A DNA stretch of 64,000 bases from Candidatus Aramenus sp. CH1. GTDB lineage: Archaea > Thermoproteota > Thermoprotei_A > Sulfolobales > Sulfolobaceae. Below, one piece after another: positions 50,870 through 64,000 of the stretch. The DNA is taken from positions 62,001-126,000 of the forward strand of contig JALBWU010000002.1 of NCBI GenBank assembly GCA_022678445.1. Reading direction: 5' to 3'. How positions within the stretch are numbered: position 1 is the first letter of the stretch; each line of letters opens with the position of its first letter. The position numbers were made by a program, and so were the translations under genes. A model generated the notes under the pieces. It was not told where the DNA came from. It saw only the letters and a list, made by a program, of their open reading frames with translations, and did no database searches.

Positions 50870-52432
50870 CTACTTAACTTCTTGTCTCCTTTCCTCTTCA
50901 ACTATGTTGACAGTCTTCCCTATCTTGTTCCTTATTTCCGGCTTCTTCTTCCATGTCCACAGCGAGTAGGCTATCGTGAAGGCTAAGTACACCGTGGAGG
51001 CAATGACTGCCTGCGTGTACGGGAAGACTGGAGGCCACACGCTGGTGTACAGCACGAAGGCGAATATGCCGGTGGCTACGGTTGGGAAGGCGTAGTGCTG
51101 AATTAGGTGGATGGCGCCTTGTTCAGTCCAAAGTGCCCTCTCCTTTAGCCTGTAGAAAAGCACCGACACCGAGGTGTTCATGGTCACGTGGGTCACCACT
51201 AGCCCCACTAGGGCCATTGTGGTCAAGAATCCGAACGCATTCTCTAGGGCGTTGATTACTTGGGTTGAAGTCGCTGGTAGGCTGAGCATCTGAACTGGGC
51301 TTACGCCAGAGAAGTAGCCTGCTATGAAGCCCGCTATTACCGCAATTACGGTGGAAGACACTCCGACGAACGCCAATGCCTTAGTGGGCGTGACGAACTT
51401 CCTGTCCACGTACGCAAAGAACTTGGGGAGCACCCCGTCCCTAGCCATGGCAAAGTAGACCCTACCTGCGTTGGACTGCATTGCGACGCTGTCGGAGAAC
51501 GCCGAGTTGAAGGCAAAGAGAGCCAGCAGGAGCCCTCCAGCGATACCCATGTACTCGGTGTACACTATTATCCCTGGAATACCGCTGTTGGTGAAGCTCA
51601 TCATGTTGTCCACTCCCCAGCCCACGGTTAGCGCGTAGGCTACCTCGGTCAGCACTGCCCCGACTATGAACACCCCCATCATCAGTGCCTTCCTTATGGA
51701 CTTAGAGTGTTTCGCCTCTTCCCCTAGGGGCGCTGAACCGCCATAGCCTATGAAGCTTGTTATCCCAAATATCATGCCCAAGCCCAGCGCTGCCAGGGGC
51801 CCTCCCAACGGGGCGAACTGGCTACCGTACACTTGGTTCCACGCGAACGGGTTGAAGACGTTGATTGTGTTATCAGGGGCCTTCAGGATAACTATCAAGC
51901 TAGTCGCGGCCAAGAAGGCAACTTCTGCGAGCGCCGCGTACCTAATGTACTTCATCTGGGGCCTTATGCCGACCATCGCCAACGCTATCGGCGCCATTAT
52001 GAACACTACAATAAGCGGTATCCATACCCAGCCAGGGAGGGAGATGCCCCAGAAGTGGTTGAGCACGCCGGGTAGTACTATCCCTCCCACGTAGATGGGT
52101 ATAGCTGCTGTACTCACTATCTGGTACATCGGGTACATTAGTCCAACTACCATTGCAGCCCTTGGGCCAAAGGCAGTAGCCACGTAACCATAGTAGCCCC
52201 CAGCGCTAGCGTGTCTCTTGGCTAGGTGGTATAGGGTGTTGACCTCAAGGTACATCACTGCCATAGCCAGCAGGAACGCCAACGGCGTCAGCACGAACGC
52301 GGCGGCAGCAGCTGACGTTATGAACGCCACTGTGTCGCAAGCTGGAGCCATTGCGGCTATCTCTTGTCCTAGGGCCTCCAACGTCCCGACTACTCCCTTT
52401 TTGAGCCTTGGAACCTCTTGCTGATCGCTCAT
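50870..52432 (-). CDS. APC-superfamily amino acid permease
   Basis: A 520-aa polytopic transporter with 12-14 helices. The N-terminal ATLEALGQEIAAMAPACDTVAFITSAAA-type region (GTLEALGQEIAAMAPACD) is that of archaeal amino acid permeases, and KRHASAGGYYGYVATAFG follows helix 2 as in the family. The central segment SFIGYGGSAPLGEEAKHSKS (YGG...GEE) is the helix 6 substrate region. Substrate unknown. A minus-strand TATA box (TTTTTATATT, 52454-52463) lies 26 nt upstream of the ATG at 52432. Confidence 0.88.
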   Translation of the reverse strand: MSDQQEVPRLKKGVVGTLEALGQEIAAMAPACDTVAFITSAAAAAFVLTPLAFLLAMAVMYLEVNTLYHLAKRHASAGGYYGYVATAFGPRAAMVVGLMYPMYQIVSTAAIPIYVGGIVLPGVLNHFWGISLPGWVWIPLIVVFIMAPIALAMVGIRPQMKYIRYAALAEVAFLAATSLIVILKAPDNTINVFNPFAWNQVYGSQFAPLGGPLAALGLGMIFGITSFIGYGGSAPLGEEAKHSKSIRKALMMGVFIVGAVLTEVAYALTVGWGVDNMMSFTNSGIPGIIVYTEYMGIAGGLLLALFAFNSAFSDSVAMQSNAGRVYFAMARDGVLPKFFAYVDRKFVTPTKALAFVGVSSTVIAVIAGFIAGYFSGVSPVQMLSLPATSTQVINALENAFGFLTTMALVGLVVTHVTMNTSVSVLFYRLKERALWTEQGAIHLIQHYAFPTVATGIFAFVLYTSVWPPVFPYTQAVIASTVYLAFTIAYSLWTWKKKPEIRNKIGKTVNIVEEERRQEVK

Positions 52433-52788
52433 ATATTTAGGGTAACCCTAATAATATAAAAATTTGTCGCTAGCGGAGTCTAAGCAAACAGAGACTATGG
52501 AGAATTGGCTGTGCCGTAAAGCTCGAAAGTTTGCCGTTAAGTTTATACATAACGGTGTTCTCTCGGAGTGGAAAACTCAGCTGTACCAACCCTACTCTTT
52601 GAAATAAGAAATGTTACAGAAGCTAAGGTCTTTGGGTCAGGAAGCCTATAATGTTAAAGAAAGAGGGTTAGAAGAATAGCCTTATTCTCAAGCCCTTATA
52701 TTATGGAGATTGCTCACTATTACGTACTTATCTTATCATAAATTGATACTATTAGTTGACAAAGATTAAAGTTACATTAAACGTGCTA
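52433..52788. other. 356-nt intergenic region
   Basis: No coding ORF. The first 40 nt hold the promoter of the amino acid permease. A short inverted repeat CCGTTA...TAACGG occurs at about 52535-52556. Around 52700-52775 there is a segment (GGAGATTG, CACTATTACG, GATACTATTAGTTGACA) loosely similar to segments upstream of 33602 and 60790. The 52590-52700 part shows no recognisable feature. Confidence 0.4.
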
Positions 52789-52968
52789 TTATTTTCTTAA
52801 TTTTAACTTACCAACGAACAGTAGCACCTTCTTTCCCATTAACTCGGTTTCAATAGCGTAAAATGGTCTCATTTCGATTAGCCTTTCTCCCTGGATTTCA
52901 ACCCTCTTAACCTTAATCTCTTTAGATCTGTACCCCTTTTCTTTTAGTTTATCAATAATATTTTGCAT
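52789..52968 (-). CDS. 59-aa basic small protein
   Basis: A 59-residue protein from the ATG at 52968 to a TAA at 52789-52791. It begins MQNIIDKLKEKGYRSKEIKV and ends LLFVGKLKLRK; the middle (KRVEIQGERLIEMRPFYAIETELMGKKVLLF) looks like a small alpha-beta-beta fold with many Lys/Glu. The start has a perfect TTTTAAAA box at 52992-52999, 26-27 nt upstream, and the stop is followed by A/T-rich sequence. No family recognised; a nucleic-acid-binding or regulatory peptide is possible. Confidence 0.6.
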   Translation of the reverse strand: MQNIIDKLKEKGYRSKEIKVKRVEIQGERLIEMRPFYAIETELMGKKVLLFVGKLKLRK

Positions 52969-52990
52969 GTTATTATATGTGTGTATGAAG

Positions 52991-53000
52991 GTTTTAAAAA
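52991..53000 (-). promoter_or_regulatory. TATA box of the 59-aa protein gene
   Basis: TTTTTAAAAC on the minus strand, centred 27 nt before the ATG at 52968. It supports the small gene as real. Confidence 0.55.
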
Positions 53001-53011
53001 ACTTTTTTCCT

Positions 53012-54073
53012 TTAGAAAACTTCTCTCGCGGTCTGGATCAGCCGATAGGAAGATACGTGTAGTTGCGACGCCAGGGCTTGTATGCCAAGCTTAGTGCCTA
53101 TCACGTTTAGTCCACCTAAGTATGCACCGTAGACGTCGCTGGGGGGAGGCATGGCCCCAGCCATGAAGCCGAAGTCGGTAGCTAAGGAAGTGGAGTTTGC
53201 GTAGTAAACTTGTACCGCCTTGTCTCCAGCTAGGAAGAAGAACGGGGCCGCAAACTGGGGGTTCTCTATCGTAAACGCAGTGGCATTAACGCTGTGTACC
53301 TCGACTCCAGCTGAGGGTAAAACGTTGTTAGTCTCAGTAGAAAAGCTGTCTATGCTGAGCGAGACACCGCTGACCAGGGTGTAAGGCCATACGAACCCCA
53401 AGACATCTGTGGCCACGACCATGACGCCGCTCACTTTCATTTGGACGCCGTTATTGCTTACGGTAGCTATGGTCACCCCGTTGAGCTGTATTACCCATTG
53501 CCCGTTGCTGTAGAAAACGGTCTCGTTTATGGGGGAGGACGCACTTAGGGTAAGCCCTCCGTATATGACGTAGATTACTCCGTAATAGATTGGCGCGTTT
53601 GGCACAAACCACACATTGACGTCTGGGACCACTGTACCGTTACCCAAGTTGGCCGCGCCGTCCTGTATCCACATCCAGTTTACGGGTAGCGTAACTGGCG
53701 GAGGAATGAAGTAGTTGAAGTATGGACTCACCAAGCTGACGTTTAGGTAACCAGACACGTTGACTGGGACGTTAAGCATGTACGCTACCGTGTAGTTTCC
53801 GTCAGACACTCCGGAGAACCCCCTTGTCCATAGGGCAGTGTAATTTGAGAGCCCCGTGACCGTGGAGTAGCCTCCCACCGCCCAGTCGTAAGTCATACTT
53901 GAGGTGGCGGGAACGCTCAGGAACTCCGAGGAGGAGGCGAAGATCCCGTCCTCGAACATTTCCCTACTCCATACAGCTTGAGCTAAGTAGACGACTAGCG
54001 TACTCGACACTAACAACAGTACAATAAGGGCTTTTAGAAAGACATTTCCGCGCTTCCTTGGTTTTCCAGACAT
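53012..54073 (-). CDS. Secreted or membrane-anchored surface protein
   Basis: A 353-aa exported protein. The start at 54073 gives MSGKPRKRGN followed by one hydrophobic helix (about 13-34) that ends with LAQAVW, a plausible signal peptidase site or signal anchor. The exterior part is rich in Tyr, Ser, Thr, Asn and N-x-S/T sites with strand-rich blocks (GYLNVSLVSPYFNYF, VIYVIYGGLTLSAS). No enzymatic motif is seen. An ATG 32 codons upstream exists, but the TATA box (ATTTAAAT, 54097-54104) lies 27 nt before 54073. Divergent from the amphipathic peptide gene across about 80 nt. Confidence 0.7.
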   Translation of the reverse strand: MSGKPRKRGNVFLKALIVLLLVSSTLVVYLAQAVWSREMFEDGIFASSSEFLSVPATSSMTYDWAVGGYSTVTGLSNYTALWTRGFSGVSDGNYTVAYMLNVPVNVSGYLNVSLVSPYFNYFIPPPVTLPVNWMWIQDGAANLGNGTVVPDVNVWFVPNAPIYYGVIYVIYGGLTLSASSPINETVFYSNGQWVIQLNGVTIATVSNNGVQMKVSGVMVVATDVLGFVWPYTLVSGVSLSIDSFSTETNNVLPSAGVEVHSVNATAFTIENPQFAAPFFFLAGDKAVQVYYANSTSLATDFGFMAGAMPPPSDVYGAYLGGLNVIGTKLGIQALASQLHVSSYRLIQTAREVF

Positions 54074-54096
54074 TACGTTATATAAAACGATGTTAT

Positions 54097-54104
54097 ATTT
54101 AAAT
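54097..54104 (-). promoter_or_regulatory. TATA box of the surface protein gene at 53012-54073
   Basis: ATTTAAAT, 27 nt upstream of the ATG at 54073 on the minus strand, which decides the short start. Confidence 0.5.
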
Positions 54105-54121
54105 TTTATGTAAATAGATAA

Positions 54122-54130
54122 GATATAAAC
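54122..54130 (+). promoter_or_regulatory. TATA box of the amphipathic micro-protein gene
   Basis: GATATAAAC, centred 30 nt before the ATG at 54156 and 42 nt before the ATG at 54168. It gives a nearly leaderless message for the longer form or a leader of about 15 nt for the shorter one. Confidence 0.5.
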
Positions 54131-54155
54131 ATTGAAAATATCGATTTTTTCTATC

Positions 54156-54281
54156 ATGGGAAAAACCATGGCAGAAAGTAGCCTCAGTCTCCTAATACAA
54201 CTAATAGAACAACTACTAAATACGATATTAGGACTCCTAGAGACCCTGCTCCAGGCCCTAATCCAAGTCTTCGCAGTGTAA
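54156..54281 (+). CDS. 41-aa leucine-rich amphipathic micro-protein
   Basis: ATG at 54156 (second ATG at 54168) to TAA at 54279-54281. After a short polar start (MGKTMAESS) the rest is one predicted amphipathic helix: 12 Leu and 4 Ile in 41 residues, with polar residues at about positions 15, 18, 22, 26, 29, 33 and 37, every 3-4 residues. The net charge is slightly negative (three Glu, one Lys). A TATA box precedes it and a T-rich run follows the stop, so it is a complete transcription unit. It has no family match I know. A membrane-active or oligomer-forming peptide is inferred from shape. Confidence 0.6.
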   Translation: MGKTMAESSLSLLIQLIEQLLNTILGLLETLLQALIQVFAV

Positions 54282-54292
54282 AAGGCATAAGG

Positions 54293-54307
54293 TTTTTCTT
54301 CTTTTTA
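54293..54307 (+). terminator. T-rich terminator after the micro-protein gene
   Basis: TTTTTCTTCTTTTTA begins 12 nt after the TAA at 54281; a further run TTCTTTTTAATT follows at about 54313. Archaeal RNA polymerase terminates at such T-tracts without needing a hairpin. Confidence 0.55.
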
Positions 54308-54427
54308 TTCAACTTCTTTTTAATTCCCAAAGTATTTCTGATTGTCTTTAGTTATCTGAAAATATACAGTTTTCTACGTTATTAAAAGTTTTTATATCGG
54401 TCATATTGAATGTAGAGTAGATGCCAG

Positions 54428-54706
54428 ATGAAATGTAAGTTCTGCGGGTCATCTAACGTCATAAAGTACGGAAAGCTGAAGACTGGCAAGCAAGTTTACT
54501 TCTGCAAGGCCTGCAGGAGGTACTGGGTCGAGAACGCAGTTTTCCACAAGTACCCTGAGTCTGTTAGGTCAAAGGCCTTAAGCCTTTTCCTGCAGGGCGT
54601 GCCAGTCAGGGAGATCTCGAAGGAGTTCCTCATCCCACGCTCCACGATATACAAGTGGATAGAGAAGTACTGTAAGGGGGACGGGGAAAAAGGGGGTTTA
54701 CAGTGA
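54428..54706 (+). CDS. Zinc-ribbon plus helix-turn-helix protein (InsA-like, transposase-derived)
   Basis: A 92-aa protein. The first 33 residues form a four-cysteine zinc ribbon (CKFCGSSNVIKYG...YFCKACRRYW). Residues 43-80 form a helix-turn-helix (RSKALSLFLQGVPVREISKEFLIPRSTIYKWI). The combination is that of the N-terminal part of IS1/InsA-like transposases, without the DDE catalytic domain. It overlaps the secreted-protein gene by 4 nt (GTGA at 54703-54706), so here it is probably a domesticated regulator translated with that gene. No terminal inverted repeats were noticed around it. Confidence 0.7.
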   Translation: MKCKFCGSSNVIKYGKLKTGKQVYFCKACRRYWVENAVFHKYPESVRSKALSLFLQGVPVREISKEFLIPRSTIYKWIEKYCKGDGEKGGLQ

Positions 54707-55563
54707 AGAGATGGCTCCTTTCCCTCACTCTCCTATTACTTCTCACCCTCCCCCTCCTCGGAGTGAGGCATTCTGCAGGTCTACCAAGTGGATCGGAACT
54801 GACCTATCAGGTCTCCTTTTCCCTCAACGCATTAGTTGTAAGTCAACAGGGAACTGGGGTTGTGACCCAGCATGTCTTAGGGGGCACCAACTTCACTTTA
54901 CTGTTTAGTACCTTTGGTTACGGGAGTATTTACTCGCTAGCGAGCAAGGACAACGTTAACCTAACGTCTTACTTCTTGATGGAAATGTATAACGGGACTT
55001 ACAATAAGAGCGTTGGACTGGGTAACGGTTTCCCCATGCTCTCCTCTAGCGAGCTGGAGTCCTTAAAGACAGGCAACTTCCAGGAAAACGGCTCTGAGGC
55101 AACTGTGGTTGCGTGTAATTACACCACCTCCAAAGGTACCTTCCCCGTCTACAAGATCACGTTAGTAAAGAGCGAGGCCTTGGGGACAGGGAACATAACG
55201 CTCTGGGTTAACGCTTCCAACGGCGTAATCATGCAGGAGTACATCGAGGTCTCCACTTTTCTGGGCTCTGCTACCATAACCGCGAAGCTGGTGAACTGGA
55301 GCATACCACAACCCAACGCCTCCCAAGTGAGCTCTAGCACTACAGTTTCGAACACGACCTTCACTACGTCCAGCGCCACCATGACCTCTACGACCTATAC
55401 GCATATCCCAGTCACGACTTCCAGTGGTCCCCGGCCAACCTCCTCCACCACCGAAAGCAGTGGCTCTGCTACTACCTCAATTCACAGCGTTCCTATCTAT
55501 GTACCAATAGCAGTAGTCGCCGTCGTAGTTGTCCTATCTGTGTTCCTCCTAAGGAGGAAGTGA
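54703..55563 (+). CDS. Secreted protein with Ser/Thr-rich stalk and C-terminal anchor
   Basis: A 286-aa exported protein, starting at a GTG coupled to the zinc-ribbon gene. Residues 1-25 form a signal peptide (WLLSLTLLLLLTLPLLG). The body (25-200) is strand-rich with several N-x-S/T sites and two cysteines. Residues 200-255 are a Ser/Thr-rich stalk, probably heavily glycosylated. The last 30 residues form a membrane helix (VPIYVPIAVVAVVVVLSVFLL) with RRK at the end. An ABC exporter gene pair follows after 67 nt, suggesting a related role at the cell surface. Confidence 0.75.
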   Translation: MKRWLLSLTLLLLLTLPLLGVRHSAGLPSGSELTYQVSFSLNALVVSQQGTGVVTQHVLGGTNFTLLFSTFGYGSIYSLASKDNVNLTSYFLMEMYNGTYNKSVGLGNGFPMLSSSELESLKTGNFQENGSEATVVACNYTTSKGTFPVYKITLVKSEALGTGNITLWVNASNGVIMQEYIEVSTFLGSATITAKLVNWSIPQPNASQVSSSTTVSNTTFTTSSATMTSTTYTHIPVTTSSGPRPTSSTTESSGSATTSIHSVPIYVPIAVVAVVVVLSVFLLRRK

Positions 55564-55600
55564 CTCGATCGCCCTAGGGAGTTCTGACACCGGTGAAAAG

Positions 55601-55609
55601 GTTTTTATG
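55601..55609 (+). promoter_or_regulatory. TATA box of the ABC exporter operon
   Basis: GTTTTTATG is centred 26 nt before the ATG at 55631. It makes 55631 a better start than the GTG at 55616. Confidence 0.55.
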
Positions 55610-55630
55610 CAGTAGGTGACAGTACAGGGT

Positions 55631-56548
55631 ATGTCCTTCTCTGTAGAGGTAGACAGCGTGACGAAAAGACTTGGGAAGTCCGTTGTCCTCGACGGCGTCT
55701 CCTTAACTGTTGACAAATCTGGATGTTACGCGGTCCTTGGTCCAAATGGCGCAGGGAAGACTACCCTTTTCAGAATACTGACGACTCTGATTTACCCGGA
55801 CAAGGGAAAGGTCCTGATCAACGGAGAGGACGCGTTCAAGGACAAGGAGAAGGCGTTAGGGAACTTGGGGGCCCTAGTCAGCGTCCCAGAGCCTCCGGAC
55901 TTCATGAAGGTCGGGGAATTCATAGAGTTCTCCGCAAAACTGAGGGGAAGGAAGGCAAAGCTCAACGAGCTAAACGAGAAATTAGACCTTCCCGACCTAA
56001 ACAGGAGGTGCGGTAAGCTTTCCAAGGGACAAAAAAGGAGGGTGTTCTTGGCAGCGTTGATAGCCCAAGACCCGGACATAATAGTTTTGGATGAACCCAC
56101 TGACGGTCTAGACCCCATTGAGATCTTCAAGGTAAAGGGCGTCATTAGGGAGTTGAAGAGGGACAAGATCATTCTCTACTCTTCTCACATCATGTCGGAG
56201 GTTGTGGACATATGCGACTACGTCTTTATCATGAATAAGGGTAAAATAGTCTATAAAAGCACAATAACTAACCTAGAGAGAATGTTTAGGCCCACCTCGT
56301 TGAGGGTAGAGTTAGAGTACCATATATCAATCGACGAGCTGAAGGCCACACTTAACGGCCTTGTCAAGTCGATAAAGGAGGACGGCGACAGGAGGTATGA
56401 GGTCGAGTTCGATGGAAACTCAGAGACGAGGCAGAAGATATTGAAGATCCTAGTGGACAACTTTCAAGTTAGGAGCTTCTACGACTCCACCTCCTCGCTT
56501 GAGAGCGCCTTTGTGAAGGTTTTGGGTGTCTTTAATGGCGGGAGTTAA
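55631..56548 (+). CDS. ABC exporter ATPase
   Basis: A 305-aa ATPase of the ABC-2 exporter type: Walker [10 protein letters not shown], the signature as CGKLSKGQKRRVFLAAL, Walker B IIVLDEPTDGLD, and the H-loop YSSHIMSE. The canonical Q-loop glutamine appears to be replaced around VSVPEPPDFM. The extra C-terminal 80 residues (LRVELEYHISIDELKATL...) are the regulatory domain common in daunorubicin-resistance-type ATPases. It overlaps the permease gene by 14-22 nt and forms an exporter with it. Confidence 0.88.
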   Translation: MSFSVEVDSVTKRLGKSVVLDGVSLTVDKSGCYAVLGPNGAGKTTLFRILTTLIYPDKGKVLINGEDAFKDKEKALGNLGALVSVPEPPDFMKVGEFIEFSAKLRGRKAKLNELNEKLDLPDLNRRCGKLSKGQKRRVFLAALIAQDPDIIVLDEPTDGLDPIEIFKVKGVIRELKRDKIILYSSHIMSEVVDICDYVFIMNKGKIVYKSTITNLERMFRPTSLRVELEYHISIDELKATLNGLVKSIKEDGDRRYEVEFDGNSETRQKILKILVDNFQVRSFYDSTSSLESAFVKVLGVFNGGS

Positions 56549-57317
56549 AGACCTCTTCTACTATAACCTGTTGTTTTACGCAAGGACGAGGAGGTTCCAA
56601 ATAATGTTGCCCCTTTCAGTGGTCGTGGCGTTCCTCAACACAATCTTAGTCGTCTTCAAGGTAGTCTCTAAGCCCCCCTCCCCTTACTTGTTTACGGAGG
56701 CGAACCTGGGTTATTCCGAGATACTGTTCATCCTAATTGCTTCCATGTTTGCAGGAGACCTCGTCTCAAGGGACTTCTCTAAGGAGGGGCTGTTTATCCT
56801 CACCCAACCCTTTGAGAGGTGGAAGGTGTTTGCGGTGAAGCTCATAGCCTCGGCGTTTGCCTCAATAGCGGTAGCTTTAGCCTATTTGGCCGGTTCCTTT
56901 GCCTCCACTTACGCCCTGTACAAGTTCGTGGTACCTACGTGGTCCGAGATAATTGGGATCTCTATCCTGGCAGTGGTTTCCCTTGTCTGCTTCGTCTCTT
57001 TTTTCAGCGCGTTGGTGAAGAGCCCAACGATCTCAATAACGGTATCCATATTTATCCTCCTTATAGCGTTCCCCTTAGTGCAGTCGATCATGGGCGACGT
57101 AAACAGGGAACCCTTCTTCCTAGTCACTTACGCCCTAGAGGTGATCACTAACTTAGCCCAAAGCACATATCCACCGCATGCGGTGCCCGTGGCGGGAGAC
57201 AGCGTCACTTACAATCCGACAGTTCCGGAAAGCGTGGCGATATTCCTAGCCTACTTGGCGTTAGGCGCCCTCGCGTCGTTGGTAATTTACAAAAAGAAGG
57301 AACTAGCAGAGGCTTAA
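56535..57317 (+). CDS. ABC-2-type membrane permease
   Basis: A 260-aa permease with six membrane helices, partner of the ATPase upstream. The typical ABC-2 features are a first helix at about 26-44 (MLPLSVVVAFLNTILVV), the cytoplasmic RDFSKEGLFILTQPFERWKVF before helix 3 and a last helix ending in KKKELAEA. Start at the ATG 56535 or the GTG at 56526; both lie inside the ATPase 3' end. Substrate unknown; the neighbouring surface genes suggest export of a surface component or peptide. Confidence 0.85.
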   Translation: MAGVKDLFYYNLLFYARTRRFQIMLPLSVVVAFLNTILVVFKVVSKPPSPYLFTEANLGYSEILFILIASMFAGDLVSRDFSKEGLFILTQPFERWKVFAVKLIASAFASIAVALAYLAGSFASTYALYKFVVPTWSEIIGISILAVVSLVCFVSFFSALVKSPTISITVSIFILLIAFPLVQSIMGDVNREPFFLVTYALEVITNLAQSTYPPHAVPVAGDSVTYNPTVPESVAIFLAYLALGALASLVIYKKKELAEA

Positions 57318-57355
57318 AACGTTTTTATACTTGAAGATGAAGTATATTTGGGTAG

Positions 57356-57583
57356 GTGTTCGTGAAGATAAATCTAGCCTCCCTGCTGGAAAGTAAGGGG
57401 ATTAACGCAGAGGAAATAGACGCTAAAAGGCTTGTCATAGAGACCAACGACGGTAGAGTGATCTATGCTGAGGAGCCATCCATAGCTAAGACGAGGTTTT
57501 TCGGAATGGACGTACTGTTAGTTCTTGCTGACCTAGACGAGGGAAAGAAAGAGAAGCAGGAACAAGCAAATAGCTCAAAATAA
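57356..57583 (+). CDS. Small protein of unknown function
   Basis: A 75-aa soluble protein I do not recognise. It has a helix-strand start (KINLASLLESKGINAEEI), two strands (RLVIETNDGRVIYAEEPS, MDVLLVLADL) and a lysine/glutamate/glutamine tail (KKEKQEQANSSK). GTG start at 57356 (or 57362), with a GTTTTTATAC box about 26-30 nt upstream. Monocistronic, 38 nt downstream of the permease. Confidence 0.55.
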   Translation: MFVKINLASLLESKGINAEEIDAKRLVIETNDGRVIYAEEPSIAKTRFFGMDVLLVLADLDEGKKEKQEQANSSK

Positions 57584-57809
57584 TTTAACTACTATGTCTT
57601 CTTTTTATAAAGAATATTCTATTCCCTATTCGCTTTTGATAATCTCTAGGATATAAACATGAAGAAGATATAAGTTTTTAAAAAGTATACATTAGATTAT
57701 TTGTTTAGAAAAATTGAGATATATAAGATTTATTTAATGTAAAATGCCGAAATAAGGCGTAAGCGGTAAACCCCGATAAATACAAGGGTGATAGGTTTTT
57801 AAAAAAAGT

Positions 57810-57818
57810 TTTTATATA
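57810..57818 (+). promoter_or_regulatory. TATA box of the pilin-like operon
   Basis: TTTTATATA, 40 nt before the ATG at 57855; the transcript would start near 57840, giving a leader of about 15 nt that contains the Shine-Dalgarno site. Confidence 0.55.
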
Positions 57819-57840
57819 GAGAGTTTGATCATAAAAATAT

Positions 57841-57849
57841 AAGGAGGTG
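57841..57849 (+). promoter_or_regulatory. Strong Shine-Dalgarno site of the pilin-like gene
   Basis: AAGGAGGTG ends 5 nt before the ATG at 57855 and is complementary to the 3' end of 16S rRNA over at least seven bases. Most first genes of transcripts in this window are leaderless, so this is an exception and points to strong, initiation-controlled expression. Confidence 0.7.
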
Positions 57850-57854
57850 TCAAT

Positions 57855-59822
57855 ATGAACGTTGGACTGAAGGGTTCTTGGAGGAGTGGTCACTCCAAGA
57901 GGGAAGGTATTAGTTCGGTTGTGGGAATGTTGATCGTTCTCATTATCCTCATAGCTGTCCTCATTCCGTTTACTTATCTCGTGCTCTCCCTTCCTTCCTC
58001 CCAGTCGACTGCAGCAGACAACGCCCAAGCAATTAACTCCGTAGCAACGTCCCAAAAGAACGAAGTGGTTGTAATAGAGTCGAGTGAACAGTTGAGCACT
58101 GCAAGCTTCTTGGCGACGAATCACCCCGTGTACTACGGGTTAGTTTACTCTCGGGAGGGAGGGATCTTGTACGTATTACTGTTACAGAACGCGGTGCCCT
58201 CCCCACCTCTTGAGATTAAAACAATCCTAGGGTACAACGGTGCTAGGTGGGTAGTTGTTAAGTCGTTAAACGAGGTGGTAAACGAGACAACCGCTGATCA
58301 CACCTTTAACGGGTTTAAGGCAGCTGCAATTAATGTAGGATCAGATTACGAGGAGCTGATGGTGGAGACAAACTTCGGGAACTTAATCCCCGTGACTCCG
58401 TATGAGAGCATACCCTTGCCGTTAGCCAAGGAGACCGCAGGGATAGTGTACTTACAGCCCAAAAACTTCATCGTGGTCCAACAGCCAAAATTAGTACTAC
58501 TAAGCCAAATACCTGGGATTAGCTCGAATAAGTTGGAGGATGGTGTTAGCTTGGTGTACTTGGCTAAACAAATAGGCAACTCCTTTACTGTTTCATGTGC
58601 TGAGATAGTGGGCTTGAATGGAGAATTCCACTACGTGGGATATTACCAAGGGGTCATAAGTAGCAATCCTCTTTCTTTTTCCCTTTACTACTTTAACGGC
58701 ACGTTGGACGGTAGCTGGCAGGTTCCTCCATACGAGAATATTATATCTCCTAATGGATCCTACAACGGTTCGATAACTCTACCGGCACCATTCTTCGAAA
58801 CTCCTATTAATGTGAGTGTGAAGGGGTACGTTAATGCAGTAGTCAACGGTTCCAATGTGACACTAACCGACTTCTTAGGTAACGTGACCTTGAGCAATAA
58901 AACAGTACTAGTATTCAATGGAAGTAATAAGATACTAGAAATCTTTCCTAATGGTACAAATTCAACTTTAACTTATCGCGGTAGCTACGAGATAAACGCT
59001 ACAAACATGACCTCCATTGAGGGGAAGGGTCTCATAACGTTTACAAACTCTCAAGTTCCAGTCTATTCTTTTGGCTTATATTTAGGCGAGGAATACGTCA
59101 CTGCTATGATCTCTGGCTACCTAAATGGCTCCATAACGATAAGTAACAATAACAACTTCATTTACCCGTATGGTGAGGGCGAATTCAACGGTCCTTTCGA
59201 AATTCAGACGAACTCCGTGTTTGCCGCCGCCGGTTTTTCCGAGTTTAGCGGGATCATAAACGCTACTATGTCCCCAGACTACATACCCTTTGGATATTCA
59301 GCCACCCTCTCCTTGTTCATCAACTCCACGTCAGAGAATAATGGCTACATTAAGAGCTACAATGGTTTGGAACCGTGGGTTGAGGAGCCCCTAGTTATCA
59401 GGTTCAACTTCGCTATAGCTAACCCGTCTAACTACTCTCTAAAGGTCTACTATGGATACCTCTTCTTTAAGGAGCAGTTTGTACTCGACTTCCTGATGTC
59501 CTCCGGGAGTAAAACTGGACAGGAGTCCGGCTACTTCTTAGGAGATGTCCAGTTTAACTTGCCCAATGGTCCGCTTCTGATACCTCCTAGCGGGTTAGTC
59601 AATGAAACTGTGCAGATAGCTGTACCGCTCCAGATCAATTTCTTCAACCCACAAGCGTATTCCGCCTTCAACGAAAGCATCAATAATGAGAACCAGTTCG
59701 TAATCTACCCGCAATACGAGGAACTAACCATAGAGTTCTACACCAATGTCGGCTACCTGGCCTCGTCCACTTTCTACATACCGGTGCAGCAGCCTATAAC
59801 AGTCCAAGCCCAGCAGGGGTGA
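57855..59822 (+). CDS. Large pilin-like surface protein with class III signal peptide
   Basis: A 655-aa exported protein. The N terminus has a class III (type IV pilin/archaellin) signal: basic residues, then KREG before the hydrophobic helix (SSVVGMLIVLIILIAVLIPFTYLVL). The prepilin peptidase PibD would cut after the Gly of KREG, leaving the helix at the mature N terminus. The remaining 600 residues are an extracellular beta-rich, Asn/Ser/Thr-rich domain with very many N-x-S/T sites, so heavily glycosylated. It is far larger than ordinary archaeal pilins (about 130-200 aa), suggesting an adhesin on a pilin anchor. Its partner gene follows after 6 nt. Confidence 0.75.
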   Translation: MNVGLKGSWRSGHSKREGISSVVGMLIVLIILIAVLIPFTYLVLSLPSSQSTAADNAQAINSVATSQKNEVVVIESSEQLSTASFLATNHPVYYGLVYSREGGILYVLLLQNAVPSPPLEIKTILGYNGARWVVVKSLNEVVNETTADHTFNGFKAAAINVGSDYEELMVETNFGNLIPVTPYESIPLPLAKETAGIVYLQPKNFIVVQQPKLVLLSQIPGISSNKLEDGVSLVYLAKQIGNSFTVSCAEIVGLNGEFHYVGYYQGVISSNPLSFSLYYFNGTLDGSWQVPPYENIISPNGSYNGSITLPAPFFETPINVSVKGYVNAVVNGSNVTLTDFLGNVTLSNKTVLVFNGSNKILEIFPNGTNSTLTYRGSYEINATNMTSIEGKGLITFTNSQVPVYSFGLYLGEEYVTAMISGYLNGSITISNNNNFIYPYGEGEFNGPFEIQTNSVFAAAGFSEFSGIINATMSPDYIPFGYSATLSLFINSTSENNGYIKSYNGLEPWVEEPLVIRFNFAIANPSNYSLKVYYGYLFFKEQFVLDFLMSSGSKTGQESGYFLGDVQFNLPNGPLLIPPSGLVNETVQIAVPLQINFFNPQAYSAFNESINNENQFVIYPQYEELTIEFYTNVGYLASSTFYIPVQQPITVQAQQG

Positions 59823-59828
59823 AAGTAC

Positions 59829-60338
59829 ATGGAGAGCGCGATCTCCACGTTCATACTGGCCATCGCTACTGTCGTAATAGGTGTAGTACTATTCGGCTTA
59901 ATCTCCAGTTACGTAGCAGTCCAAGCTACCACAACTAACGAGATAAAGGAGGCTCAAGCCCTAGCGTCGACCCTCCAGATTAGGGAACAGATATCCTACG
60001 GTGAGGCTATCGTAGTTCCCTACCTTCCTGGGTACAGCAGGCTGATCTACGTAGTCGCATTTAATGTGCCACAGAATTTGACGACAGCGGAGTCCCTAAG
60101 CCTAATAACCCCCTCAATGGGAACTCCAGTTGAGGTAAACTACACTTCCGGTGTGTCGACCTCGATAACCGTGTACTCCACTTCTGGAAAAGAGATATAC
60201 TCTGGCCCCGCCTTGCTTTACAACACGACCTCTAATTCCGTTAGTATAATATCCCTTCCTACCCACGGCTACACAGTAGTCTGGTTTATGGTAGACATAG
60301 ACGGGAAGCTGTACAGGATAGGATACCTAGAGCTCTAA
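59829..60338 (+). CDS. Small pilin-like/ArlF-G-like membrane protein
   Basis: A 169-aa protein: an N-terminal hydrophobic helix (AISTFILAIATVVIGVVLFGLISSYVAV, about residues 4-30) and a beta-rich, Ser/Thr-rich extracellular domain of about 135 residues (GKEIYSGPALLYNTT...YTVVWFMVDIDG). The layout resembles archaellar stator proteins ArlF/ArlG and minor pilins, but the helix is not preceded by a K/R-G cleavage site. It is in an operon with the large pilin-like protein, 6 nt apart. Confidence 0.7.
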   Translation: MESAISTFILAIATVVIGVVLFGLISSYVAVQATTTNEIKEAQALASTLQIREQISYGEAIVVPYLPGYSRLIYVVAFNVPQNLTTAESLSLITPSMGTPVEVNYTSGVSTSITVYSTSGKEIYSGPALLYNTTSNSVSIISLPTHGYTVVWFMVDIDGKLYRIGYLEL

Positions 60339-60789
60339 GACAAGGCATGTTTTTAGTCTTTCACGTTATTTTTAGTCTTTCACGTTATTACTAGAAGGTA
60401 TTTTTAGATTATAGTGGCTAATAAATGGTATCCAAGATATCTACACCGCTAACATTGTTATCCTATTAAAAAATATAGAAAAATCTAGTTGTCTGTTCTT
60501 TACTCATAATTGTGTATAAGAATCAAACATTAGTTTGCCAACTTTTCTCAAGTGTATTTACGTAAGTATTTCAATCTAAAAGATACTAGATCTTCTAAAT
60601 TAGAACTTATTTTTACCATACTTTATATCCTTAATTATCAGAATATCTGGTTCTTAGTTCTATGTTATCTCGATATTATTACGTGATCTAATAGTTGATA
60701 ATTTAAGCTAAATTTGCTGAAGTATAACACACGTAAGGTCAGATGACAAGACTTTTTACTTGGGTACACTAGTCTTATACGTATCACTC
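60339..60789. other. 451-nt intergenic region with tandem repeat
   Basis: A/T-rich, no coding ORF seen. It opens with a perfect 19-bp tandem duplication (60351-60388) just after the pilin-like operon. The middle is featureless. The segment 60672-60705 (ATTATTACGT, GATCTAATAGTTGATAA) is loosely similar to segments at 33391-33455 and 52700-52775. The end (GACTTTTTACTT, 60743-60754) may carry the promoter of the TPR gene. Confidence 0.5.
60351..60388 (+). repeat. Perfect 19-bp tandem direct repeat
   Basis: TTTTAGTCTTTCACGTTAT occurs at 60351-60369 and again at 60370-60388. It begins 13 nt after the stop of the small pilin-like gene. The T-runs could act as a doubled terminator. Confidence 0.85.
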
Positions 60790-61938
60790 ATGGGAGGAGA
60801 GGATCACAACTTAAGGGCAGTTTCCCTGATCAACGACGGCGAAAAGAAGGTAAAGCTGGGGGAAGTTACTGAGGCAGAGCAATCCCTAAAGAGGGCCCTC
60901 TTGGAACTAGACGAGGCAATAAAGGAAGAGGACAGCCCGAAGTACCACTACAACAAGGGCGTAGCTTACCTAAACCTAGCAAGGGCCTACTCCTTGACCG
61001 ACGAGGAAAAGGCGATGGAATCCCTGGAAGAGGCACTAAGGGAGTTCGAAGTCGCCTTGAAGCACTCTGATAAAGGGGTCTTCCACAACGGCAGGGGCAC
61101 CGCCCTTGCGGAAATGGCCAGGCTCAGGAGGAATAAGGGCGACGACGTTGCCCTCCTTCTCGAGGAGGCGATAAGGGAGTTCTCAAAGGCAATACTCATG
61201 GAGCCGGAGGAGCCCAGCTATAGAGTAAACTTGACCAACGTCGTGTCCTTCCTCGCCGAGTCCAAGGCCCTTTCCGGAGACCTGGAGGAGACAGAGAGGC
61301 TCCTCTCCAAGGTCGTTGAGGAGTACGAGAAGACGTCCACGAATGACCCAGACTTGAGCTACGCTAATGCAGTTACCTTAATGGAGATGGCAATGGTGAG
61401 AAAACAACTGGGAAAAGTGGAGCAGGCGAGGAAAGACCTTGAGGTCGCCTTAGCTGAGCTAGACAAGGCCATAGCCAAGAACCCCATATCCTCAGACTAC
61501 CACAACGCCAGGGGCAACGCCCTCCTACTCCTGTCAGAGGTACTACCACAAGGGGAAATTGAGAACGCCCTGTCGGAGGCCGTGAAGGAGTTCGACGAGG
61601 CGGTCTGGAACAACCCCATGTACCCATTCTACCACGTTGGAAAGGCAAACGTACTGGTCAAGCTAAGCCAGCTCTCTGCCGTAAAGGCAGAGGACTACTT
61701 GAGGCAGGCCATCTCAGAGTACTCTGAGGTCCTTCAGATAGCCAAGGACAACCCGGACTACTTGACCCTTAGGGCAAAGGCCTACCTAGAGCTTGGGAAG
61801 GCCACAGGGGACGCCAAGTACGTAGACGAGGCGGTGAAGGATCTGGACAGGGCGAGCAGGTACTCTACGTCTCCAGAGATAAAACAGCTTAGAGAGGAGG
61901 CAATTAAGCTAAAGCTAGGGCTGAGGAGGAAGGGCTAA
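60790..61938 (+). CDS. Tetratricopeptide-repeat protein
   Basis: A 382-aa, all-helical soluble protein composed of TPR-like helix pairs: GEVTEAEQSLKRALLELDEAIKE, KAMESLEEALREFEVALKHS, LLEEAIREFSKAILMEPEEP, and others ending in AVKDLDRASRYS, about seven to eight units. TPR arrays act as scaffolds for other proteins. The start at 60790 is chosen; a TTG at 60760 would add a short hydrophobic stretch. It lies between the pilin-like operon and an ABC exporter operon on the other strand (4-nt overlap at the 3' ends). Confidence 0.75.
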   Translation: MGGEDHNLRAVSLINDGEKKVKLGEVTEAEQSLKRALLELDEAIKEEDSPKYHYNKGVAYLNLARAYSLTDEEKAMESLEEALREFEVALKHSDKGVFHNGRGTALAEMARLRRNKGDDVALLLEEAIREFSKAILMEPEEPSYRVNLTNVVSFLAESKALSGDLEETERLLSKVVEEYEKTSTNDPDLSYANAVTLMEMAMVRKQLGKVEQARKDLEVALAELDKAIAKNPISSDYHNARGNALLLLSEVLPQGEIENALSEAVKEFDEAVWNNPMYPFYHVGKANVLVKLSQLSAVKAEDYLRQAISEYSEVLQIAKDNPDYLTLRAKAYLELGKATGDAKYVDEAVKDLDRASRYSTSPEIKQLREEAIKLKLGLRRKG

Positions 61939-62459
61939 GGCCTCCTAGCCCTCTCAAAAAGCATTGTGGTCAGCCCTAGGACTGTGAGCACCAACCCCAA
62001 CGCCTCCACTAAACTGGGATTCTCCACTAGGTTCATCCTCGTGACGGACATCTTCACGTAGATGGGGTAGGTAGCGTTCCTGGACTCGACTAGCTTCTCC
62101 TCGTGGATCACTTTCTGGACAGTGACGTTACCGCAACTCAAGGACTCTGTGACGTTTATAACTTTGGTTACGTTCATGGAGTACAGTTCCTGGTAAGGTA
62201 ATATGACCCATTCCCCGGGCGTCAATGGGATCACGGAGTCCAGCTTCACTATCGACTTTTCCCCGTTATGTACTACCTCGACGTAGGCGGAGACGTTAGT
62301 GGCGTTCTCTATAAGCTCAAGTTCCCCATAGACAGTTGGAGGAACGTTTAAGGACAGTTCCTTTGACAGGACTTGCGTGTTCATCACGTGAGCGTTAATG
62401 GAGGCTAAACCCAAGGAGAGGAGGGCAATGCCAAAGGCAAAGGCTAAACTCCCCTTCAT
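61935..62459 (-). CDS. Membrane protein with extracellular beta domain, third gene of ABC operon
   Basis: A 174-aa protein: N-terminal signal or anchor helix (FAFGIALLSLGLASINA), an exterior beta domain of about 125 residues with six to seven N-x-S/T sites, and a C-terminal membrane helix (LVLTVLGLTTMLFERARRP). One cysteine (SLSCGN). It follows the ABC permease with a 4-nt overlap, so it is the third component of that exporter, perhaps a periplasm-side accessory protein. Confidence 0.7.
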   Translation of the reverse strand: MKGSLAFAFGIALLSLGLASINAHVMNTQVLSKELSLNVPPTVYGELELIENATNVSAYVEVVHNGEKSIVKLDSVIPLTPGEWVILPYQELYSMNVTKVINVTESLSCGNVTVQKVIHEEKLVESRNATYPIYVKMSVTRMNLVENPSLVEALGLVLTVLGLTTMLFERARRP

Positions 62460-63163
62460 ACCTCTAACCCCCTGAACTTAAGGAAGGAAAGCACGAAAGC
62501 CAATACCGCTACCAACCCGTCCACGGCTACCCCTACCTCCACCTGCTGGTAGAGGTCCTTGCCTAAGGCGGTTATTATCCAAGGTACAAACGGGTTGGTG
62601 AAGGAAAGAGCAAAGATCTTCCCGTACTCTCCTTGGAGGGCGTAAAAGTACTCCCCAGCACCGCCGAACACGAAGACCCCACCAAGGACGAAGATGGACA
62701 TCAAGGTGGACACTCCTGGGCTCCTGAATATCAAGGTGAGCAGTAGGACTAGGTTTTCGGCGAAGAAATATCCAACTACGAAGGTGAAAGCCAACAGGGG
62801 TGGGACTGGGACGCCAGAGAGAAGGGAGTAGAGGGCAGTAGTAAAGGCCCAGAGCAGTATGGGCACCACCACGTCAGAGAAATAGATGAACGCGAAGAGC
62901 TCCTCCCTCCTCACGGGGGTCGTAAGGAAGGAGATTATGCTCTCCTTGTACAGATGATCTCCCGTGACAAAGATCACGTTCCTAAGGCCTAGGGAGAAGG
63001 CCAAGGTCTCGGAGACACTGATCACCGGGACCATGGACAGCACAACCCCCAAGAGGGAGAACCCTCCCCTCTCGTAGAAGGCACTCAAGAAGACGTTTGA
63101 TACCAACATAGTTGGCAGTACAAGCTCTAGCGTGGGCTCCCTGTACCTCTCCTTAAAGACCAT
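62456..63163 (-). CDS. ABC-2-type membrane permease
   Basis: A 235-aa permease with about six helices (TLELVLPTMLVSNVFLSAFY, LSMVPVISVSETLAFSL, FAFIYFSDVVVPILLWAF, LLAFTFVVGYFFAENLVLLLTLIF, and two more). The cytoplasmic segment FLTTPVRREELFAF before helix 3 is typical of ABC-2 permeases. The ATG at 63163 comes 1 nt after the ATPase stop; an in-frame ATG at 63196 inside the ATPase gene would add 11 residues. Confidence 0.85.
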   Translation of the reverse strand: MVFKERYREPTLELVLPTMLVSNVFLSAFYERGGFSLLGVVLSMVPVISVSETLAFSLGLRNVIFVTGDHLYKESIISFLTTPVRREELFAFIYFSDVVVPILLWAFTTALYSLLSGVPVPPLLAFTFVVGYFFAENLVLLLTLIFRSPGVSTLMSIFVLGGVFVFGGAGEYFYALQGEYGKIFALSFTNPFVPWIITALGKDLYQQVEVGVAVDGLVAVLAFVLSFLKFRGLEV

Positions 63164-63164
63164 G

Positions 63165-64000
63165 TTAAACACTTGAAAACCTCTTGAACGCCTCATCCAA
63201 GGAGTACCTCCTCACGTTTATTACGTTTACCCCTGCGTCGTCTAACTTGTCGACTATCTCCCTCATCCTCCCCCTTACCTTCAAGTATCCCCCTTCCATC
63301 TCCCCTTGGCCAATGACCTTTATCGCTTTCTCCGGGTTGTCGACCAGCAGGTAAACCTCTTCCTCCTCTCCTGCCATTGCGTCGTTTATTCTACCCGCAA
63401 AAGTGATCCTTCCCTCGTTTATGAAGACGGCGTGGGTGATGACCTTCTCCAGCTCGGAGAGTATGTGGGAAGAGATGAAGAACGTCACCTCCCTCCTGTT
63501 TAGCCTCTTCACTGCCTCGTAGAACTCCATCCTAGCGCTTGGGTCCAGGTTGGCCGTAGGTTCGTCTGCGACTATGAGCTCGGGTTCCTTCAAGAGGGCT
63601 GAGGCCAGCTGTACCCTCTGGGCCAGCCCCGAGGAGAGCTGGTTGAGCCTCTTGTTGAGGTGGGGGCCCAAGTTGAATTCCTCTATGACATCCCTTGGGT
63701 CCTTACCGTATATCCTTCCAATGTCGTAGAGGTACTCCTTGACCTTTGCCTCCTGCGGGTGGTGGATAGTGGTGAAGACCACGGAGAACCTCTCGTAAAG
63801 CCTTGGGTTGTTCCAGGGATCCTCCCCAAGCACCTCTACTTTTCCTCCTGACTTCCGCAAGAGCCCTGCGATGACCTTTATGGTAGTGGTCTTGCCGGCG
63901 CCGTTGGGCCCTATAAAACCTGTTATTGACCCTTTCTCTACTCTGAAGGTGACGTTAATCACTTCCCTCCTGCCAAAGACCCTCGCGAGGTTCTCGGCAA
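63165..64000 (-). CDS. ABC exporter ATPase, 5' end outside window
   Basis: ATP-binding subunit of the ABC-2 exporter. Walker A is GPNGAGKTT, the signature [17 protein letters not shown], Walker [13 protein letters not shown] and the H-loop FISSHI. The frame stays open through the right edge ([13 protein letters not shown] upstream of the GTG at 63962), and this extra stretch matches the usual first strand of such ATPases, so the true start lies beyond 64000. The C-terminal domain ([17 protein letters not shown]...) is the regulatory extension. The ATPase, permease and beta-domain protein form one operon. Confidence 0.85.

Follow-up and report, generated by a model that had tools for sequence, protein, structure and literature searches.

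The described systems closest to the locus reported here are the phenol-soluble modulins (PSMs) of staphylococci with their Pmt exporter, the leaderless bacteriocins, and the sulfolobicins of archaea. EntDD14, a leaderless bacteriocin of two peptides, needs PH-domain proteins for its export and is toxic if retained (PMC8657885). Sulfolobicins are antimicrobial proteins of Sulfolobus that are active on relatives (PMC4609331), and they were the only archaeocins of the family Sulfolobaceae that surfaced in our literature searches. Here we analyzed a stretch of 64,000 nucleotides from the thermoacidophilic archaeon Candidatus Aramenus sp. CH1 (contig JALBWU010000002.1, positions 62,001 to 126,000; hereafter the window), which carries the gene of a 37-residue amphipathic peptide. 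We established the gene itself, selection on its protein, the helix pattern, its linkage to a conserved cassette, and the NAC-domain homology of a 75-residue protein encoded there. With moderate confidence, we propose that the product is a leaderless membrane-active peptide that dedicated NAC-like chaperones would shield and that would leave the cell through an ABC-2 transporter of its own.

A peptide gene under selection on its protein

A preliminary description of the window had drawn attention to an open reading frame (ORF) of 41 codons (54156-54281, forward strand). We searched 60 relatives first and then used peptide profiles to search 31 genomes of the family and 214 genomes of the order. 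Peptide genes were found in seven genomes only, namely that of the window (G000), G009, G012, G013, G019, G020 and G023, with E-values down to 1e-12 in the search of 60 relatives and 1e-18 with the profile. The relatives sit in stand-alone ORFs of similar length. Close relatives begin with MAESS, and the MGKT prefix of the 41-codon ORF is absent from every relative; we therefore took the in-frame ATG at 54168 as the start, which yields a product of 37 amino acids, MAESSLSLLIQLIEQLLNTILGLLETLLQALIQVFAV. Thus, the ORF is a real gene as first described, whereas its start and length had been set four codons off.

Two diverged peptides, G012c and G023b, emerged when short amphipathic frames were sought in the fetched cassette regions; they brought the number of genes to ten, with one to three diverged peptides per cassette. 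These extra genes adjoin the main ones (L015:12907-13023, reverse strand, 38 amino acids, in G012; L019:10258-10398, forward strand, 46 amino acids, in G023). A profile that included both detected no further peptide genes in the family and order genomes. The peptides fall into separate groups when ORFs are clustered at E 1e-4, and their kinship rests on the profile searches. Order-level matches at E 0.01-0.05 were partial (13-25 positions) and were dismissed, and the peptide profile found no confirmed relative among viral contigs and named genomes (pattern scans). Further, eight peptides compared with Pfam and NCBIfam at E up to 10 matched no peptide-toxin family, including no curated PSM family. 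The profile matched a cross-alpha amyloid-like peptide in the PDB weakly (E 0.26), which we did not take as evidence.

Between the window and G012a, 21.2 of 27.8 synonymous sites and 14.8 of 83.2 nonsynonymous sites were changed. The resulting pN/pS was 0.23 in frame, as compared with 0.76 and 3.39 for the two alternative frames, and dN/dS between the peptide genes of G013 and G009 was 0.11. The ORF at 54168 was confirmed as a real gene under selection on its protein. In most of the ten genes, a TATA-like element lies about 38 to 44 bases upstream of the ATG; the weakest are those of the window and G012b. T runs follow the peptide stop codons at the other loci as well.

AlphaFold modeled the peptide of the window as a single helix (pLDDT 95). 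Each of the ten peptides had a higher hydrophobic moment than shuffled versions of its residues (p <= 0.0003); the moment was 0.65 in the window peptide, and none of the other short frames of the window was as high, the next values being 0.55 and 0.50. Polar residues of the 37-residue helix occupy a sector of about 150 degrees and the remainder is hydrophobic; in the ten peptides, nearly all polar helix residues lie within about 80 degrees of the center of the polar face. The Kyte-Doolittle maximum was 1.6-2.1 and the net charge 0 to -5, so that the peptides are neutral or anionic, and mostly anionic; they contain no Trp, and no leader or basic n-region precedes the helix in the sequence. Amphipathicity is kept among the peptides, and length and ends vary.

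These results bear out part of what had been read from the letters of the window. The TATA box and T-rich terminator said to frame the ORF are both present, as a TATA-like element and a T-rich run (Table 1), the leucine-rich amphipathic helix has a gene of its own, and its build does resemble that of the PSMs as a short leaderless amphipathic alpha-helix. Conservation in Sulfolobales, proposed as a check, was found in six further family genomes (7 of the 214 order genomes are carriers), and the codon substitutions among the ten peptides leave the amphipathic pattern intact in every one.

A cassette of transporter, NAC-like and exported proteins

The preliminary description had also placed the peptide beside surface-protein and ABC exporter genes, and exported-protein and ABC genes do adjoin it. 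Its main omission was that the peptide belongs to a single conserved cassette together with the ABC genes, an HTH regulator, two exported proteins and two NAC-like mini-proteins. ORF clustering gave a core common to five genomes (the window, G009, G012, G013 and G020), consisting of a 59-residue protein, a 353-residue exported protein, the peptide, a zinc-ribbon/HTH protein, a 286-residue exported protein, an ATPase, a permease and a protein of 62-75 residues (Table 1).

Among the 31 family genomes, the permease is present in the seven peptide carriers and in no other, and its full-strength matches in the order fall in the same seven of 214. Such a perfect match among the 31 would arise by chance with a probability of 4e-7 if the genes were independent; the real figure is less extreme because some carriers are related (G013 and G020; G012 and G019). 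In G019, peptide and permease lie on separate contigs. The order search also gave a distant permease match, in G159 (E 3e-11), which was dismissed. The sole named carrier, found through the permease, was Sulfolobus sp. UBA167, which we equated with G019 on the agreement of the permease contigs; the window is kin to it at the family level.

The ATPase belongs to the exporter type. In NCBIfam it came closest to the GldA, DrrA and lantibiotic-protection types, without reaching the cut-off of any or passing an equivalog cut-off, and it also resembles ABCA-type lipid exporters. This resemblance and the strict linkage of permease and peptide would fit a peptide that is not exported and instead belongs to the ABC-2 transporter as a small subunit in the membrane, or regulates it; the transporter would then export something else (a lipid, a surface protein or a drug); small helical subunits of transporters are known. 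However, a TATA-like element and a T-rich end of its own accompany the peptide gene, which occurs in one to three diverged copies per cassette; the one-sided polar stripe and Kyte-Doolittle values of the peptide are not those of a plain transmembrane helix, and a NAC-like pair would be odd for a single transporter subunit. We consider such a subunit rather unlikely.

In the favored reading, the two NAC-like mini-proteins would shield the peptide before its export. Archaeal NAC is described as a ribosome-associated chaperone that shields nascent chains, a homodimer in the one solved case (PMC7264160). The 75-residue protein of the window scored 28 bits against TIGR00264, for which the equivalog cut-off is 80, and had no Pfam NAC match of its own, while three of its orthologues passed the Pfam NAC cut-off of 21.3 bits (25.3, 23.0 and 22.4 bits). 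Alignment of its clade with canonical Sulfolobaceae NAC by hhalign gave a probability of 97% and 42% identity over 59 columns. The 59-residue protein has no NAC match of its own in Pfam or NCBIfam; its profile matched the 75-residue clade (probability 94%, E 1.2e-7) and canonical NAC (probability 62%), so that profile comparison alone links it to the 75-residue clade and, more weakly, to NAC itself. Both proteins end after the NAC domain; they have neither the UBA domain nor the basic N-terminus seen in canonical NAC. Each of the 31 family genomes encodes one canonical NAC above the cut-off, and a second, sub-threshold NAC was found in G000, G009, G012, G013 and G020 only, within the cassette. 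The presence of two paralogues in one cassette suggests that they form a heterodimer.

Table 1. Positions of the cassette, its genes and flanking elements in the window
Feature	Position	Strand	Remarks
Amphipathic peptide gene, 37 aa	54168..54281	+	Conserved start ATG 54168; peptide profile E 6e-16 in own genome
TATA-like element TATAAACA	54124..54131	+	-44..-37 relative to conserved ATG; weak consensus match, 5/8
T-rich run, terminator-like	54293..54322	+	3' of peptide stop codon
ABC-2 type permease	56526..57317	+	PF12679 E 0.0012, below cut-off
ABC exporter ATPase (putative)	55616..56548	+	PF00005 E 5.7e-27
75-aa NAC-domain mini-protein without UBA domain (clade 1)	57356..57583	+	TIGR00264 (archaeal NAC) E 2.2e-6
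59-aa NAC-like mini-protein (clade 2)	52789..52968	-	Conserved in 5 cassettes
353-aa exported protein, N-terminal hydrophobic helix	53012..54073	-	Divergent from peptide gene
286-aa exported protein, C-terminal transmembrane anchor	54703..55563	+	Conserved in cassettes
92-aa zinc-ribbon and HTH protein	54428..54706	+	NF033558 E 4.6e-16 over residues 3-81 only; in 5 cassettes
655-aa exported protein, pilin-like N-terminus (accessory)	57855..59822	+	Pilin_N only, E 0.51
169-aa exported protein, pilin-like N-terminal helix (accessory)	59829..60338	+	Homologues in G012, G019
Segment missing from sister genome G001	51112..61761		10.65 kb, holds whole cassette

The match of the 92-residue protein to the IS1 transposase model is confined to the N-terminal 79 positions, and the protein has no catalytic domain; we therefore read it as a DNA-binding protein without transposase activity, likely a regulator derived from the N-terminus of an IS1-type transposase. 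As a stand-alone gene kept in five cassettes, this IS1-type zinc-ribbon/HTH unit is apparently domesticated. The adjacency of a regulator gene to the peptide in these cassettes would suit a leaderless pheromone that leaves the cell through the ABC-2 transporter and is perceived by means of the HTH protein or the exported proteins. PSMs themselves release the PmtR repressor (PMC5354552). However, very hydrophobic helices of 37-46 residues would be unusual pheromones, and Pfam and NCBIfam recognized no known sensor or receptor family in the cassette. On balance, we regard a pheromone as quite improbable.

The 353-residue protein was found in five of 31 family genomes, all of them peptide carriers, with a second, weak match in G020 outside the cassette (119609-119794, E 1.5e-4). 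It had no match in Pfam or the PDB and belongs to no known family there, and its single-sequence fold was useless (pLDDT 36). The 286-residue protein shares 25-61% identity among cassettes when the near-identical G013/G020 pair is excluded. Homologues of the 655-residue pilin-like protein lie beside peptide genes in G012 and G019 only. Since the two exported proteins are conserved and pilin-like proteins adjoin in the window, G012 and G019, the peptide might instead be a structural or assembly factor of surface structures built from these proteins, oligomerizing in or on the membrane, with the ABC proteins serving assembly. This is unlikely in our view: in G009, G013 and G020 the place of the pilin-like proteins is taken by another large exported protein and by MacB-like permeases, and peptides that vary in length and ends while keeping their amphipathicity are unlike a tightly fitted subunit.

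Other genes vary among the cassettes. Downstream of the permease, G009, G013 and G020 (L017, L018 and L045) have two MacB-like permeases and an exported protein of about 825 residues, which in G009 contains CARDB domains; a LolD-like ATPase is seen there too in G013 and G020. A protein with two transmembrane segments and a possible PH domain occurs in four cassettes (G009, G013, G020 and G023); its PDB profile matches to ubiquitin, over about 30 residues, were taken as chance. The cassette of G023 keeps the 286-residue type, the ATPase, the permease and two peptides; the HTH gene was not found in the fetched region. Between its exported protein and the ABC ATPase lies a gene for a secreted protease with a pro-kumamolisin activation domain (L019:12425-14221).

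Spread of the cassette and proposed function

The whole cassette lies in a segment that is missing from the sister genome G001. DNA identity between G001 and the window is 91% up to 51111 and from 61762, and 51 bases lie between these flanks in G001 (L098:3963-4013). The remaining APC transporter gene is truncated in G001, and a deletion there is therefore likelier than an insertion in the window. A second pair of ABC permease and ATPase genes (62456-63962, reverse strand) lies outside the variable segment and is also present in G001. Permease identity was 81% between G009 and G013, which are placed in different genera, and 47% between G013 and G023, which belong to one genus. The cassette is an accessory locus of patchy spread. 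A viral or plasmid origin is unsupported, as we found no permease on plasmids and no 353-residue protein in phages or viral contigs.

Patchiness and absence from a sister genome would also fit a toxin-antitoxin or abortive-infection unit in which the peptide is an intracellular toxin and the NAC-like proteins its antidote, and short hydrophobic toxins are common. However, PADLOC matched solely the ATPase domains of the ABC ATPase, and such a unit, which we consider very improbable, would have no need of a dedicated ABC exporter or of two exported proteins.

We favor a secreted peptide. It would be the product of an accessory cassette, synthesized without a leader as a 37-residue helix. A leaderless hydrophobic helix must stay soluble, keep out of the producer's membrane and be exported, and the NAC-like proteins and the ABC-2 exporter could supply this. 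In the cytosol, the two NAC-like proteins would bind the peptide and prevent its aggregation or its entry into the cell's own membrane; the ATPase and the permease would carry it out. Outside, at low pH, its acidic side chains would be largely uncharged, and the peptide might insert into or coat the membranes of competitors, or serve as a surface-active factor. Low external pH could in this way switch it from a cytosol-compatible to a membrane-inserting form. The two exported proteins may handle the peptide at the surface or confer immunity, and the IS1-derived HTH protein may control expression.

We infer these roles (chaperoning, export, membrane activity, immunity and regulation) from several lines of evidence: coding selection together with amphipathicity retained in ten peptides; strict co-occurrence with the permease; a gene set conserved in five genomes, with NAC-domain proteins other than the canonical NAC in carriers only; an ATPase nearest to exporter-type families and a peptide lacking a leader or basic n-region; cassettes with one to three diverged peptides, a parallel to the leaderless bacteriocins made of several peptides; and a patchy spread, seen in the permease identities across genera and the segment missing in G001. 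The constant transporter genes and the usual chaperone-like genes accompanying the peptide suggest a new family of archaeal secreted membrane-active peptides.

Several points weigh against this reading. The co-occurrence amounts to seven cases, four of which fall in the two close groups G013/G020 and G012/G019. A NAC-like protein was not found in the fetched cassette region of G023, nor the 353-residue protein in the G023 genome. The PH-like assignment of the protein with two transmembrane segments is sub-threshold (Pfam bPH E 0.02-0.3), and a PDB profile search with it gave no credible match. Immunity could be attributed to no cassette protein. Further, leaderless bacteriocins are cationic and usually contain Trp, unlike the peptides of the cassette.

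More tentatively, the NAC-domain-only pair may have split from the universal chaperone and become dedicated to one to three leaderless, acid-activated helices, which it would hand to the ABC-2 exporter; this would be an undescribed archaeal peptide-secretion system. If such a coupling of peptide and NAC exists, it would show how a very hydrophobic and potentially self-toxic peptide crosses the cytosol, and it would be the first known case of a nascent-chain chaperone recruited to a peptide-secretion locus; we know of no earlier one. Thermoacidophiles would then produce membrane peptides that are triggered by pH. Being short, the peptides can be synthesized, and their activity on tetraether membranes at low pH is therefore directly testable. 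The locus also shows that archaeal genes of fewer than 40 codons can be recognized through their partner genes.

Comparison with known systems

To our knowledge, no leaderless peptide-export system has been described from thermoacidophilic archaea. Searches of the open-access literature found no description of such a cassette, and the lack of Pfam and NCBIfam homologues does not prove that the literature has none. A similarity to the sulfolobicins would lie in an antimicrobial action on relatives, a comparison drawn from their published description. With archaeal NAC (TIGR00264/PF01849, structure 1tr8), it shares the NAC domain of the 75-residue protein and its orthologues; in contrast, the cassette proteins consist of the NAC domain alone, form two paralogues, one of them weakly NAC-like, and occur in carriers only.

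The resemblance to PSM/Pmt lies in a short leaderless amphipathic helix, several peptides, linked ABC exporter genes and a regulator gene beside them (PMC5354552). However, the cassette has one ATPase and one permease as compared with four Pmt components, its peptide genes lie within the exporter cassette and match no Pfam or NCBIfam peptide family, and it is archaeal and includes NAC-like proteins. Like the leaderless bacteriocins (EntDD14, enterocin L50 and aureocin A53), its peptides lack a leader and number one or more, with ABC transporter genes in all seven cassettes and possibly PH-like membrane proteins in four. Unlike them, they are neutral or anionic, lack Trp, match no family and are accompanied by NAC-like proteins. 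With peptides that are anionic for the most part and fit no known family, the cassette appears analogous to PSM/Pmt and to the leaderless bacteriocins, and a member of neither.
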